From Corynebacterium humireducens NBRC 106098 = DSM 45392 (GTDB taxonomy: Bacteria > Actinomycetota > Actinomycetes > Mycobacteriales > Mycobacteriaceae): a stretch of 64,000 bases of DNA. Made by a program: the position numbers and the translations under genes. The notes below the pieces were generated by a model, which was given only the letters and a program-made list of their open reading frames with translations, did no database searches and was not told where the DNA came from. How positions within the stretch are numbered: the stretch's first letter is position 1; every line of letters begins with the position of its first letter. This document shows positions 53,017 through 57,348 of the stretch, one piece after another. The DNA is taken from contig NZ_CP005286.1 of NCBI RefSeq assembly GCF_000819445.1, positions 2,542,001 through 2,606,000 of the forward strand, written 5' to 3'.

Positions 53017-54198
53017 ATGAGCACCGATTCCCGCACCTGGGTCCGCGTCGGCCTGGGCATGTTCGTCCTCGCCTTCGGCGCCAACCTCTTCGCCCCGCTC
53101 CTGCTCTCCTACCGGGCGGAGGTGGGACTCACCCAGCCGCAGGTGACCTTCCTCCTCGCGGTCTACGTGCTCGGTCTGGTCCCCGCACTCCTCATCGGCG
53201 GCCCCCTGTCGGACGTGAAGGGCCGCCGCGCGATGATCCGTCCCGCGCTCATCCTGGGCGGGGTGGGGTCCGCGATCCTGGCCCTCGGTGCGGGCGGCTC
53301 CTTCCTCGCCCTCTCTGTGGGGCGTCTCGTCGCCGGCACCGCCATCGGGCTCATCATGGCCGCGGGCGCCGCCTGGCTGCAGGAGCTGTCGACGGGCCCG
53401 GTCCACCTGGGGGCCCGTCGCGCCACGGTTGCCCTCTCCCTCGGCTTCGGAGGCGGCCCCCTGCTGGCGGGCCTCATCGCCGAGTTCCTCCCCCACCCCA
53501 ACCTGCTGCCCTACCTGGTGCACATCGTCCTGCTCACCCTCATCGCGCCACTGGTGTGGCGGACACCCGGCGGCGCGCCCCGGCCGGGGGTGGAACGGCG
53601 GGCGCTGTTCTCCCGCAGCGTGCTCTCCCGCCACTTCCTCTTCGCCGTGGCCGCCTGGGCGCCGTGGGGTTTCGGCGCGGTGGCGACCTCCTTCGCCGTC
53701 CTCCCCGCTCTGGTCGACGACGCCCTGACCTGGCCGGTGGCCTTCACCGGACTCGTCGTGGCGGTTACCATGGGCACCGGCGTGCTCATCCAGCCACTGG
53801 TCTCCCGCTTCGGGTCGGACCTGGTGCCGCCGGCGATCCTGGGCCTCGGCTTCGTCATCCTGGGCATGCTGGCGGCGACCGCCGTCGCGGTGACGGGGTC
53901 GCCCTGGCTGGTGTTTCCGGCGGCAGTGCTGCTCGGCGCCGCCTACGGCGTGATGATGGTCTCCGGCCTGCGCGAGGTGCAGATCATCGCCCCGCCACGG
54001 GAACTGGGCGCGGCCACCGCGGTCTTCTACTCCCTGACCTACGTCGGCTTCTTCGTCCCGCTCGTCCTGTCCTACCTCGGCCCGCTGCTCGGCTACCCAC
54101 CGCTCTTCCTCGGCGGCGCGGTGATCGCCGCCGCCTCAATCGGGCCGGTGGTGCACATCGCTAGAGGCCGCGGATCCGCTCCGCCGCCGCAGCGATGA
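53017..54198 (+). CDS. MFS transporter
   Basis: 393 aa from ATG 53017 (GGAGGA 6 bases upstream). About 12 membrane helices, with an MFS motif in loop 2-3 (G-P-L-S-D-V-K-G-R-R). It is likely an exporter of a drug or metabolite. It has no divergent regulator but converges with the PadR gene, overlapping it by 38 bases. PadR repressors often control exporters, so a functional link is possible. Confidence 0.85.
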   Translation: MSTDSRTWVRVGLGMFVLAFGANLFAPLLLSYRAEVGLTQPQVTFLLAVYVLGLVPALLIGGPLSDVKGRRAMIRPALILGGVGSAILALGAGGSFLALSVGRLVAGTAIGLIMAAGAAWLQELSTGPVHLGARRATVALSLGFGGGPLLAGLIAEFLPHPNLLPYLVHIVLLTLIAPLVWRTPGGAPRPGVERRALFSRSVLSRHFLFAVAAWAPWGFGAVATSFAVLPALVDDALTWPVAFTGLVVAVTMGTGVLIQPLVSRFGSDLVPPAILGLGFVILGMLAATAVAVTGSPWLVFPAAVLLGAAYGVMMVSGLREVQIIAPPRELGAATAVFYSLTYVGFFVPLVLSYLGPLLGYPPLFLGGAVIAAASIGPVVHIARGRGSAPPPQR

Positions 54199-54733
54199 TC
54201 TCGGCGACCTCCTCCTGCTTGTCGACGCCCGCCTCCCGCACCGCCTCCTTCAGCTCCCGGAAGGCGCGTCCGTAACGGCCCCGCGGATCCTCGTCGGAAC
54301 GCTCGCGGTAGTCGTCGAGGATGCCCGCCCACCCGGGGTTCGCCTCGACCCGGGCACGGCCCTCGGCGGTGAGGGTGGCGAGCTTGCGACCCTCCTCCAC
54401 CGACATGGTGATCAGGCCCTCGTCCTCGAGGAGGCTGAGGTTGGGGTAGATGCCGCCCGGTGACGGGGTCCACGCCCCCTCGGTGCGCTCGTCGATCTCG
54501 GAGATGAGCTGGTAGCCGTGCATGGGTTCGTCGGCAAGCAGCACGAGGATGACCTGGCGGAGGTCGCCGCGTCCCGCGCGCCCGCCGCGCCCCCTGCCCC
54601 GGCGGCCGTGACCTCCGTGGTGGCCGTGGTAGCCGTGCCGCCCGTGCATGCGGCGGCGCCGGCGGTGGCCGTGTCCGCCGTAACCGCCACAGCAGTCGTC
54701 GGCGGGACCGTGATTGATGGTGATGTCGTACAT
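54161..54733 (-). CDS. PadR-family regulator with His/Gly/Arg-rich N-terminus
   Basis: 190 aa from ATG 54733 (GGAAGAGAG upstream). Residues 10-60 are unusual: D-D-C-C-G-G-Y-G-G-H-G-H, then R-R-R-R-R-M-H and repeated H-G/H-H-G blocks, a likely metal-binding or nucleic-acid-binding tail. From about residue 60 a PadR winged helix follows (L-L-A-D-E-P-M-H-G-Y-Q-L-I-S-E-I and P-S-P-G-G-I-Y-P-N-L-S-L-L-E-D-E-G-L-I), then a helical dimerisation region. Three palindromes upstream are probable operators. Confidence 0.88.
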   Translation of the reverse strand: MYDITINHGPADDCCGGYGGHGHRRRRRMHGRHGYHGHHGGHGRRGRGRGGRAGRGDLRQVILVLLADEPMHGYQLISEIDERTEGAWTPSPGGIYPNLSLLEDEGLITMSVEEGRKLATLTAEGRARVEANPGWAGILDDYRERSDEDPRGRYGRAFRELKEAVREAGVDKQEEVAEIIAAAAERIRGL

Positions 54734-54746
54734 TCTCTCTTCCTTT

Positions 54747-54814
54747 CGATATATCGGAATGTCTGTCGTCACCATAACTTGCGATGTATCGCTATGGCAA
54801 TAGTGATGTATCGC
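54747..54814. promoter_or_regulatory. Three operator-like palindromes upstream of padR
   Basis: CGATATATCG (54747-54756), GCGATGTATCGC (54781-54792) and GTGATGTATCGC (54803-54814) share the core GAT-n-TATC. The last two are 22 bases apart, two helical turns. They surround the likely padR promoter (TATGGT on the minus strand), which suggests cooperative autorepression. Confidence 0.65.
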
Positions 54815-54857
54815 TACCTTCTCGGCGGAGAGCCCCACCGGAGCGGTGGGCCCCCTG

Positions 54858-56351
54858 TCAGCCGCGCGCCATGTCCACGAAACGGGAGAAGTGCAGCTGG
54901 TGGGCGACGGTCACGGTGTCGATCGGGCCACCACGGTGCTTCGCCAGGATGATGTCGGCCTCGCCGGCGCGGACGTCCTCGCGGTCCTGCGAGTCCGGGC
55001 GGTAGAGCAGCATGACCATGTCGGCGTCCTGCTCGAGGGAGCCCGACTCACGAAGGTCGGCGAGCTGCGGACGCTTGTCGGTACGCGCCTCCGGACCACG
55101 GTTGAGCTGCGAGATCGCCACCAGCGGCACATCCAGCTCCTTGGCCAGCAGCTTGAGCTGACGGGAGAACTCCGAGACCTCCTGCTGACGGGACTCGACC
55201 TTCTTGCCGGAGCTCATCAGCTGCAGATAGTCGATGACGATGAGCTGCAGGTCGTGCTTCTGCTTGAGGCGGCGCGCCTTGGAACGGATCTCCATCATGG
55301 TGAGGTTCGGGGAGTCGTCGATGAACAGCGGCGCCTCGGAGATCTGCCCCACCCGGTTGGCCAGGGTGGTCCAGGACTCGTCGGTCATGCGGCCGGAACG
55401 CATGTCGGAGAGCTTGATCGACGTCTCCGCCGACATGAGACGCATGACGATCTCCGACTTGCTCATCTCCAGCGAGAAGATGACCGACGCCTTGTTGTGC
55501 TTGATCGAGCACGAACGCATGAAGTCCAGCGCGATCGTCGACTTACCCACGCCCGGGCGGGCGGCGACGATGATCATCTGCCCGCCGTGCAGCCCGTTCG
55601 TCAGGTTGTCGAGGTCGACGAACCCGGTCGGCACCCCCTGCGCCAGGCCACCGAGGTTGGCGATCTGGTCGAGCTCCTCCATCGTCGGCTCGATGATGTC
55701 GGCCAGGACTGCGTAGTCCTCGGTCTCGGTCTTCTGCGCGATGGCGAAGACCTCCTGCTGCGCCAGGTCGAGGACGGTCTCGACCTCCGCGCCCTCGTTG
55801 CCCTCGTAACCGAGCTGGACGACGCGCGTGCCGGCGTCGACGAGCCGGCGGAGGATCGCCTTCTCCGCGACGATCTCCGCGTAGTAGCGGGCGTTTGCGG
55901 CCGTCGGCACCGAGGAGATGAGGGTGTGCAGGTAGGGGGCGCCGCCGACGCGCTCGAGGTCGTTGTGCCGGTCGAGGCGGCCGGCGACGATGACCGGGTC
56001 GATGTCCTTGCTCTCGCCGAACAGGTCGATCATCGCCGAGTAGATGAGCTGGTGCGCCGGGTGGTAGAAGTCCTCCGGCGAGAGCTCGCCGATGATCTCC
56101 ACGACGGTGTTCGGGCTCAGCAGCATCGCGCCGAGCACGCCCTGCTCCGCCTCCCGGTCATGCGGCGGCTGGCGGTACTCGCCGAAGGCGGCGCCCGTGT
56201 TCCCCCGGTTGCGGCGCCGCTCCGGCCGTCCGCCCTGGCGTTCCGGGGCCTGGAACGCGGGGACCAGTGCACCCGGGTCCTCCGGGAGGTCCGGCTCCGA
56301 CGGCGGCACGTAGTCGTCGTCGAAGCTGGCGTCACCGATTCCTGAAGTCAT
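54858..56351 (-). CDS. dnaB: Replicative DNA helicase DnaB
   Basis: 497 aa, hexameric 5'-3' helicase of the replication fork. The N-terminal helical domain (P-P-H-D-R-E-A-E-Q-G-V-L-G-A-M-L-L) begins near residue 60 after an acidic extension. The RecA-like domain has Walker A A-R-P-G-V-G-K-S-T, Walker B L-I-V-I-D-Y-L-Q-L-M and S-R-Q-Q-E-V-S-E-F-S-R. There is no intein. ATG 56351 is preferred since TAGACT stands exactly 7 bases upstream (leaderless); a longer in-frame extension has no support. It is separated from rplI by a 545-base gap. Confidence 0.96.
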   Translation of the reverse strand: MTSGIGDASFDDDYVPPSEPDLPEDPGALVPAFQAPERQGGRPERRRNRGNTGAAFGEYRQPPHDREAEQGVLGAMLLSPNTVVEIIGELSPEDFYHPAHQLIYSAMIDLFGESKDIDPVIVAGRLDRHNDLERVGGAPYLHTLISSVPTAANARYYAEIVAEKAILRRLVDAGTRVVQLGYEGNEGAEVETVLDLAQQEVFAIAQKTETEDYAVLADIIEPTMEELDQIANLGGLAQGVPTGFVDLDNLTNGLHGGQMIIVAARPGVGKSTIALDFMRSCSIKHNKASVIFSLEMSKSEIVMRLMSAETSIKLSDMRSGRMTDESWTTLANRVGQISEAPLFIDDSPNLTMMEIRSKARRLKQKHDLQLIVIDYLQLMSSGKKVESRQQEVSEFSRQLKLLAKELDVPLVAISQLNRGPEARTDKRPQLADLRESGSLEQDADMVMLLYRPDSQDREDVRAGEADIILAKHRGGPIDTVTVAHQLHFSRFVDMARG

Positions 56352-56358
56352 GAGTCGC

Positions 56359-56364
56359 AGTCTA
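56359..56364 (-). promoter_or_regulatory. dnaB -10 box (leaderless)
   Basis: TAGACT on the minus strand, 7 bases before the dnaB ATG, so transcription should begin at or next to the start codon. The nearest DnaA-box-like sequence lies 38 bases further upstream. Confidence 0.6.
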
Positions 56365-56401: not shown

Positions 56402-56775
56402 TGTGGATAACTCACTTCCCCCGACACGTGACAAGGGGACATCCACAGGTCCGCAGACCCCTCGGAGGGGGGTTTATCCACAGGTTCTGTGGATAACTCT
56501 TGGTTAACGGCAGTCAAAGCGCTTTTCGACGCCACCGGCCCTGTGGACAAACTGTGGACAACCCCCTCCCCCATCCGGGGATGAAGCACCATAACAGCAG
56601 GCCAGAAGCCTTTTCCGGGGCTGTGGATAACTGTCCACGAACAGTGAATAACTGCCCTCACCAGCACCTTTGACAGGGCCCGCCAGGAGAGCCACAGGCG
56701 ACGGCCGGGCATCCGCCGGGCCACCGGAGGGTTAAGTGGAGGTTACACTCCCCAGTTTGTCCACAATTGTCCACA
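56402..56775. promoter_or_regulatory. Cluster of DnaA-box-like nonamers between dnaB and rplI
   Basis: Four exact TTATCCACA nonamers occur at 56402-56410(-), 56474-56482(+), 56488-56496(-) and 56622-56630(-). Four one-mismatch TTGTCCACA copies occur at 56542-56550(-), 56553-56561(-), 56757-56765(+) and 56767-56775(+). Several pairs are 2-6 bases apart or inverted. No gene is seen in the 56365-56895 gap. An AT-rich unwinding element is not obvious. Confidence 0.8.
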
Positions 56776-56793: not shown

Positions 56794-56830
56794 AAAACGA
56801 CGCCCCGCGGTTCACGTTCCGCGGGGCGTC
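56794..56830 (-). terminator. Terminator of the rpsF-ssb-rplI operon
   Basis: 12-base arms GACGCCCCGCGG and complement around an 8-base loop, followed on the minus strand by a short T-run (GTTTTC). It lies 66 bases after the rplI stop and separates rplI from dnaB. Confidence 0.85.
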
Positions 56831-56895
56831 GAGAGCTGTTGTCGTTGGGCCGGCAGACCTCCCGGGGGAGGCTCCGACCGTCGTCATGGCGCGAG

Positions 56896-57348
56896 TTACG
56901 CGGCGACGACCTCGAAGTTGATCTTGCCGGTCACGTCGTCGTGGAGCTTGACGATGACCTGGTAGTTACCGGTCTTCTTCACGAGACCCTTGGGCAGCTC
57001 GATGTTGCGCTTGTCCAGGGCCGGGCCGCCTGCCTTCTTCACTGCGTCGGCGATGTCGTCGGTCTTCACGGAACCGAAGAGCTTGCCGGAGTCAGAGGTG
57101 CGAACCTGCACGGTCACGCCGGACAGCTGCTCGAGCTGCTCGCGGACCTCACGGGCGTGGTCGAGGTCGCGGATTGCGCGGGCCTCCTGGGCACGCTGAA
57201 TGCCCTCGATCTGCTTCTCAGCACCACGGGTGGCCACGATGGCCAGGCCGCGGGGAAGCAGGTAGTTGCGTCCGTAACCGTTCTTGACCTCGACGACGTC
57301 TCCTGCGTCTCCGAGGTTCTCAACGGCAGCGGTGAGGATCAGCTTCAT
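56896..57348 (-). CDS. rplI: 50S ribosomal protein L9 (bL9)
   Basis: 150 aa from ATG 57348 (GGCAGGGA upstream). The N-terminal L9 domain M-K-L-I-L-T-A-A-V-E-N-L-G, G-D-V-V-E-V-K-N-G-Y-G-R-N-Y-L-L-P-R-G-L-A is followed by the long connecting helix and the C-terminal rRNA-binding domain. An in-frame extension into ssb is not credible. It is the last gene of the rpsF-ssb-rplI operon, 64 bases after ssb. Confidence 0.96.
   Translation of the reverse strand: MKLILTAAVENLGDAGDVVEVKNGYGRNYLLPRGLAIVATRGAEKQIEGIQRAQEARAIRDLDHAREVREQLEQLSGVTVQVRTSDSGKLFGSVKTDDIADAVKKAGGPALDKRNIELPKGLVKKTGNYQVIVKLHDDVTGKINFEVVAA

Follow-up and report, generated by a model that had tools for sequence, protein, structure and literature searches.

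The window, by which we mean the whole 64-kb stretch of DNA that was analysed, comprises bases 2,542,001-2,606,000 of a single 2,681,312-bp contig, which we assumed to be circular and which opens with dnaA (start at G000:C1:1; Pfam Bac_DnaA). At about 83 kb from dnaA, an oriC-proximal position of the kind described for DnaA-box clusters outside oriC, a gap of ~545 bp without a recognised gene separates dnaB from rplI; a mechanical 120-codon open reading frame in the ORF listing runs across this gap. The features of this region, in window coordinates, are as follows.

54858..56351, minus strand: dnaB, replicative helicase (ATG at 56349-56351; Pfam DnaB and DnaB_C)
56359..56364, minus strand: -10-like TAGACT, 7 bp ahead of the dnaB ATG, without promoter-scan support
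56402..56410, minus strand: DnaA box TTATCCACA, exact match, dnaB-proximal
56474..56482, plus strand: DnaA box TTATCCACA, exact match, one arm of a convergent pair with a 14-bp offset
56488..56496, minus strand: DnaA box TTATCCACA, exact match, second arm of the convergent pair
56542..56550, minus strand: DnaA box TTGTCCACA, exact match, in a tandem pair with an 11-bp offset, 68 bp from the box at 56474
56553..56561, minus strand: DnaA box TTGTCCACA, exact match, second box of the tandem pair, at 79 bp from the convergent arm at 56474
56597..56605, minus strand: CTGGCCTGC, one mismatch from the second-motif consensus CTGACCTGC, at the aligned place of that consensus
56622..56630, minus strand: DnaA box TTATCCACA, exact match
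56643..56651, minus strand: weak DnaA box-like TTATTCACT after the GCTGGT half-site, aligning with a weak box in the genus
56660..56665, minus strand: GCTGGT half-site of the second motif (consensus GCWGGT), from sequence reading and the genus consensus
56669..56675, minus strand: TGTCAAA, 3 bp ahead of the half-site and found repeatedly in the genus alignment
56757..56765, plus strand: DnaA box TTGTCCACA, exact match, rplI-proximal pair
56767..56775, plus strand: DnaA box TTGTCCACA, exact match, rplI-proximal pair
56798..56831, minus strand: terminator-like hairpin of 13 pairs 3' of rplI (hairpin scan)
56896..57348, minus strand: rplI, ribosomal protein L9, 150 aa, named from its translation

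A gene for a PadR-like transcriptional regulator (54161-54838, minus strand; Pfam E 6.9e-18) directly follows dnaB. Between 56300 and 56950, no sigma-70-like pair came out of the promoter scan. The single Rfam match up to E=1 (E 0.12, 23.8 bits, the gathering score being 55) lies within dnaB and off the cluster, and a reading of the cluster as an RNA element was rejected on this ground.

The sequence-only reading had placed four TTATCCACA and four TTGTCCACA boxes between dnaB and the rplI terminator, and exact pattern search recovered all eight at their places within 374 bp (56402-56775). It had also put the nearest box 38 bp from the dnaB -10; the box does lie upstream, at 37 bp by our count, but the TAGACT taken as the -10 gained no support from the promoter scan. 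Across the 64-kb window, 13 sites matched TTATCCACA with at most one mismatch, compared to 3.25 expected, a number reached in none of 100 shuffles, and eight of these 13 fall in the cluster. A genome-wide count, as the sequence-only reading had suggested, returned 31 TTATCCACA and 23 TTGTCCACA sites over the 2,681,312 bp (reversed-pattern controls gave 3 and 4, respectively), with eight of the 54 in the cluster and other groups around dnaA. When 54 sites were placed at random in 20,000 trials, no 374-bp window received more than 3, bearing out the claim that this cluster, which lies outside oriC and has several high-affinity boxes, exceeds chance.

At least three TTATCCACA boxes per 400 bp were found at four places in the genome: between dnaA and dnaN, upstream of dnaA, on the crgA side at 26.8-27.0 kb, and between rplI and dnaB. 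Among the 14 relatives searched, the three with a complete match list (G006, G012 and G028) had no such groups other than those around dnaA, on the crgA side and at dnaB. A separate observation concerns nine dispersed palindromic pairs, TGTGGAYAA-N7-TTRTCCACA with arms 16 bp apart, which account for 18 of the genome's 54 exact box sites (G000:C1 at 279947, 719447, 862693, 1420213, 1537416, 1682371, 2151959, 2349553 and 2414473; loci L009-L024). Several of them lie just ahead of members of a repeated gene family, one member of which, at L009, carries a domain of the HNH endonuclease type (Pfam E 3.1e-5), and the pairs and this gene family are possibly an element that carries DnaA-box-like sites.

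We evaluated conservation in our own genome and 60 others drawn evenly from the genus Corynebacterium. DnaB was found in all 61, and G045 was left out because its dnaB match is incomplete, running out where the contig stops, leaving 60 readable genomes. At least two exact TTRTCCACA boxes were present in the rplI-dnaB interval of 58 of these 60, which answers the check on conservation upstream of dnaB that the sequence-only reading had suggested; in 52 of the 60, at least two exact boxes stand beside dnaB, with the nearest box at most 403 bp from the estimated dnaB start. Loss of the boxes with the dnaB context kept, which that reading had regarded as evidence against itself, was looked for, and all eight genomes with fewer than two exact boxes near dnaB (G007, G008, G011, G025, G031, G042, G044 and G057) have other genes or long DNA separating rplI from dnaB. 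A set of 13 Corynebacterium-type named loci, from the 51 of 80 loci examined and with 1.5 kb read per locus, contained at least three exact boxes in 11 cases (for example five in C. striatum, four each in C. aurimucosum, C. tuberculostearicum and C. riegelii, and three each in C. pygosceleis and C. dentalis) and no exact box in the 1.5 kb of L195 and L197.

The arrangement of these sites was recurrent as well as their presence. In the alignment rows listed, the consensus order toward dnaB begins with a minus-strand box, TGTCAAA, a GCWGGT half-site, a weak box, CTGACCTGC and GCWGGTCA, and ends with two tandem plus-strand boxes 11 bp apart followed by the convergent TTnTCCACA-N5/6-TGTGGATAA. A box 67-69 or 78-80 bp before the convergent box occurred in 33 of 58 clusters, this spacing between exact boxes being missing in the other 25. 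The exact convergent pair at 14-15 bp was present in 16 of 58 clusters, its looser form TCCACA-N5/6-TGTGGA in 31, and the exact 11-bp tandem pair in 11. Of the 30 loci with an estimable dnaB start, 19 have the 67-69 or 78-80 bp spacing, and over these 19 the distance from the last minus-strand box to the dnaB start ranged from 53 to 300 bp. The total box count over the 58 genus clusters was 208 compared to 0.4 in shuffled sequence, a comparison that is partly circular because the clusters were picked for at least two boxes and trimmed to boxes; the motif counts given below were not so picked. Counts across related genomes are not independent events.

In seven genomes (G007, G008, G011, G025, G031, G042 and G044), genes are inserted between the site and dnaB. 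In none of the seven did the 500 bp upstream of dnaB contain a box, even with one mismatch allowed; six retain at least two exact boxes beside rplI, and G031 a single exact box parted from dnaB. The intervening gene lies on the strand opposite dnaB in G011 and G044, as judged from the translations read, and G011 keeps a palindrome of the second motif. The remaining five share a glycosidase-like neighbour, apparently the same gene, which runs in the same direction as dnaB wherever its direction was read; since it is common to five of the seven, the parted genomes probably represent three independent insertions. The persistence of boxes beside rplI without dnaB suggests that the site is not an obligatory part of the dnaB promoter, though it is usually found there. 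Conversely, of the 22 genomes in which no adjacent rplI was found, 15 keep the cluster at dnaB; one of these 15, G026, has rplI near a contig end. A natural loss case was observed in G057 (L124), in which dnaB and rplI are ~18.5 kb apart with no exact box between them and one box with one mismatch 197 bp before dnaB.

Besides the boxes, the genus clusters contained a second motif, GCWGGTCA, with 47 occurrences in 58 clusters compared to 1.6 after shuffling (maximum 5 in 100 shuffles). At least one GCWGGTCA was present in 31 of 58 clusters and at least one GCWGGT in 47 of 58; the copies in our own window, GCTGGT at 56660-56665 and CTGGCCTGC at 56597-56605, are degenerate. In 15 clusters of the crgA side, GCWGGTCA occurred 4 times compared to 0.2 shuffled (maximum 2), GCAGGT 8 times compared to 2.0 (maximum 9), and GCWGGT 11 times compared to 4.6 (maximum 11), while in 21 dnaA-dnaN arrays the single GCWGGTCA (0.4 shuffled) was not above chance. 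The second motif is therefore strong at dnaB and modest on the crgA side, and across the class its occurrence at crgA is patchy (of 30 loci, 23 were read and 7 were not located). A palindromic form, TGACCWGC-N10-20-GCWGGTCA, had at least one match in 27 of 61 genus genomes; a match lay at the rplI-dnaB cluster in nine of the 27 (G001, G006, G010, G011, G012, G032, G035, G050 and G056) and other matches lay elsewhere, so that a general regulon site was rejected for this palindrome. The presence of the second motif makes a partner protein plausible, and by analogy GCWGGTCA is probably the site of a putative partner whose role would resemble the one IHF has at datA.

The crgA-side cluster, the second non-oriC cluster of DnaA boxes in this genome (G000:C1:26816-27102, or L032:6816-7102), lies ~27 kb from dnaA between the 3' ends of a convergent rhomboid gene and crgA, a position where a promoter is not expected. 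A narrow look at 1.5 kb around crgA found at least three boxes in 3 of 30 loci (2 of them not orientable). When 13 kb was read on the crgA side in 20 genomes, a group of at least three boxes was present in 13 and absent from 7, indicating that this cluster is less conserved than the one at dnaB; 8 of the 13 groups have all or most of the offsets near 0, 10, 126 and 186 in common, in mirror image at two loci of opposite orientation. The Streptomyces-like genome G078 (4406 kb) also has a 3-box cluster between a rhomboid gene and crgA (L328:7025-7226), which contains GCAGGTCA, as well as a 4-box cluster flanked by pheA and serS (L329:5089-5415; Pfam), with ACCTGC 9 bp before its first box. We take the latter to be, perhaps, the D78 cluster of S. 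coelicolor, one of the clusters (H69, H24 and D78) that Smulczyk-Krawczyszyn reportedly described in 2006 as oriC-proximal and outside oriC, and which resemble the present locus in both respects. A D78-like pattern with ACCTGC was found in 7 of 41 genomes of the G078 genus, a count that is no test of the motif, as the pattern selects for it.

Beyond the genus, we examined 87 dnaB upstream regions of 800 bp each (67 named loci and 20 of the class). Exact TTRTCCACA was present in 55 of the 87, compared to 0.3 in 40 rounds of shuffling, and in four control windows of the named loci it was found in 5/63, 1/64, 1/65 and 0/67. Same-strand TCCMCA spacings in these regions peaked at 11, 44, 56, 33 and 12 bp. 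The rplI-dnaB context and its boxes also occur in mycobacteria, where an orthologous region can be recognised; the boxes there are often one mismatch off, and L217 and L235 have none. The sequence GCAGGTCA was present in 26 of the 87 regions (14 of 67 named loci and 12 of 20 class loci) compared to 3.1 shuffled (maximum 7), with control windows at 5/63, 5/64, 4/65 and 1/67; in 6 of 8 loci of the Streptomyces-like family f19 it stands 36-37 bp before the next box-like site, and it is missing in 61 of the 87. Outside the genus, GCWGGTCA (20 of 67 named loci) and GCAGGT (56 of 67) were each hardly above one control window (18/64 and 52/67, respectively), and an unbiased ranking of 8-mers over the 87 regions put DnaA-box words first and GCAGGTCA outside the top 25. 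A further motif, CGACACGCC, was found in 44 of the 87 regions compared to 3.4 shuffled, and in 0-2 of 63-67 control windows; it lies in the rplI-dnaB interval of Mycobacteriales and Pseudonocardiales (e.g. L200, L209 and L222) and was seen in 1 of 58 Corynebacterium clusters and 1 of 20 class loci.

We take Rv0011c to be crgA, and on this assumption the context of the crgA-side cluster is probably that of the mycobacterial Rv0010c-Rv0011c DnaA site. The four box groups of the present genome would then each have a counterpart among the five DnaA regions of mycobacteria. Mapping of DnaA in mycobacteria placed it upstream of dnaB, at Rv0010c-Rv0011c, at oriC, at rpmH-dnaA and at one further region, and ChIP-seq in M. 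smegmatis recovered the homologues of the same five regions (PMC7738170). The M. tuberculosis Rv0057/dnaB region and its M. smegmatis homologue resemble the present locus in lying upstream of dnaB, and they belong to the five regions most enriched with DnaA; unlike the present locus, this region is treated as a dnaB promoter site, with no conserved array or second motif described in the text available to us (PMC7738170). Compared with Corynebacterium, the mycobacterial loci read in this analysis have fewer boxes or more degenerate ones. That DnaA binds upstream of dnaB in an actinomycete is already known (PMC7738170), while the recurrent array, its separation from dnaB in seven genomes, its class-wide reach beyond the genus and the GCWGGTCA motif appear to be new. 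The literature searched, to the extent that its text was accessible, contains no description of the Corynebacterium array or of the GCWGGTCA motif.

A search for an E. coli-type IHF site, with WATCARNNNNTTR taken as the consensus, gave no match with up to one mismatch within 56402-56775, and such a site in the cluster was rejected. This differs from E. coli datA, which has an IHF site, whereas the candidate for a partner motif at the present locus is GCWGGTCA. Because the IHF site is absent, we did not assign the locus to datA, and a datA-like activity is a candidate activity. The locus otherwise has, like E. coli datA and DARS2 as described in the part of the source available, several boxes and a candidate partner-protein site in a set spacing outside oriC (PMC10380432). 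The clusters of DnaA boxes in B. subtilis, which are likened to the locus by description, and those in Streptomyces have been called analogous to datA, and those of B. subtilis are said to repress untimely initiation (Okumura 2012, as cited in PMC5742627).

The boxes, their conservation and recurrent spacing, the enrichment of the second motif at the locus and its independence from dnaB in seven genomes are what we observed, and by analogy we think it somewhat probable that they mark a conserved locus near oriC which controls DnaA in the manner of datA and perhaps tunes dnaB as well. Among the roles that the sequence-only reading had offered, a DnaA titration or reactivation site is the one that fared best, in view of the conservation, the recurrent spacing, the position ~83 kb from dnaA and the persistence apart from dnaB. 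The variable distance to dnaB (53 to 300 bp), set beside an inner spacing that recurs in 33 of 58 clusters, argues for DnaA control. Several observations argue against it: the boxes stand beside dnaB in 52 of 60 genomes, as expected of a promoter element; G057 has no exact box, G031 one, and L195 and L197 none; and the recurrent spacing is missing in 25 of 58 clusters and GCAGGTCA in 61 of 87 regions.

In the mechanism that we envisage, DnaA would load on the recurrently spaced box array and the convergent pair, and the putative partner protein would bind GCWGGTCA in a recurrent register with the boxes. At ~83 kb from dnaA, the locus would be duplicated soon after initiation, and the duplicated locus would then draw DnaA off the newly copied origins. 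DnaA drawn to the array might also be changed there, so that the locus would act on the cell's supply or activity of DnaA, as has been said of datA and of the Bacillus and Streptomyces clusters.

It is also possible, though we consider it rather unlikely, that the region is a DnaA-responsive control region of dnaB, in which bound DnaA activates or represses dnaB and couples helicase supply to initiation with no separate effect on DnaA. The sequence-only reading had included a DnaA-controlled dnaB promoter among its proposals, and this part of it agrees with the 52 of 60 genus genomes in which the array stands beside dnaB, with the boxes upstream of dnaB in other families, and with the 15 of 22 genomes in which the cluster stayed with dnaB when rplI was not found adjacent. 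It is not the whole story, however, since dnaB lacks a box within 500 bp in all seven genomes with intervening genes, while six of these still carry two or more exact boxes next to rplI; in two (G011 and G044) the gene standing between cluster and dnaB is on the opposite strand. The distance of 53 to 300 bp to dnaB over 19 loci with the recurrent inner spacing, and the location of our own crgA-side cluster between convergent 3' ends, likewise do not fit a promoter role. A weak point of this counter-evidence is that in five of the seven parted genomes the inserted glycosidase-like gene appears, where read, to run like dnaB, such that dnaB could still be read from a promoter beyond that gene.

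An improbable alternative is that the clusters form a DnaA-organised anchor of the chromosome, in which DnaA, alone or together with segregation proteins, would tie the dnaB and crgA-side clusters to oriC, and these would give the origin domain its shape instead of controlling DnaA supply. One cluster lies on each side of oriC in this genome, at ~27 kb and ~83 kb, the box-core spacings outside the genus have the preferred values given above, and domain I of actinomycete DnaA dimerises (PMC13270200), all of which would suit bridging, but no observation at the locus requires it. The accessory origin element that the sequence-only reading had also considered, or a relic origin, is very improbable: the box density does resemble that of the arrays around dnaA, but the lowest GC content is 53% (60-bp windows, step 30) where an AT-rich unwinding element would be expected, the GC skew is small between 46 and 64 kb of the window, deviating from zero by no more than 0.06, with no sharp or clear switch, and box arrays stand on both sides of dnaA, so that an accessory origin was rejected on AT content and on those arrays. 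A chance or compositional artefact, for which we found no supporting point, has almost no probability given the maximum of 3 sites in 20,000 placements and the conservation of two or more exact boxes in 58 of 60 genomes.

Returning to a datA-like locus of DnaA control, we propose more tentatively, as a possibility rather than a probability, that it is a composite element peculiar to the Actinomycetes, in which the array is combined with GCWGGTCA for a putative sequence-specific partner that would replace IHF and switch the states of bound DnaA. The question of how DnaA is restrained in actinomycetes is raised by mycobacteria, for which one source reports that no homologue has been identified of Hda, YabA, SeqA, SirA or DiaA, the proteins that regulate DnaA in E. 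coli and B. subtilis (PMC5720831). A conserved non-coding array with a second motif gives a concrete handle on DnaA control, and the locus ties the mycobacterial DnaA sites and the Streptomyces-like clusters into a syntenic set flanking oriC. If the proposal of a composite element is true, that element would be a missing DnaA regulator in a class whose mycobacteria lack recognisable Hda, YabA and SeqA.
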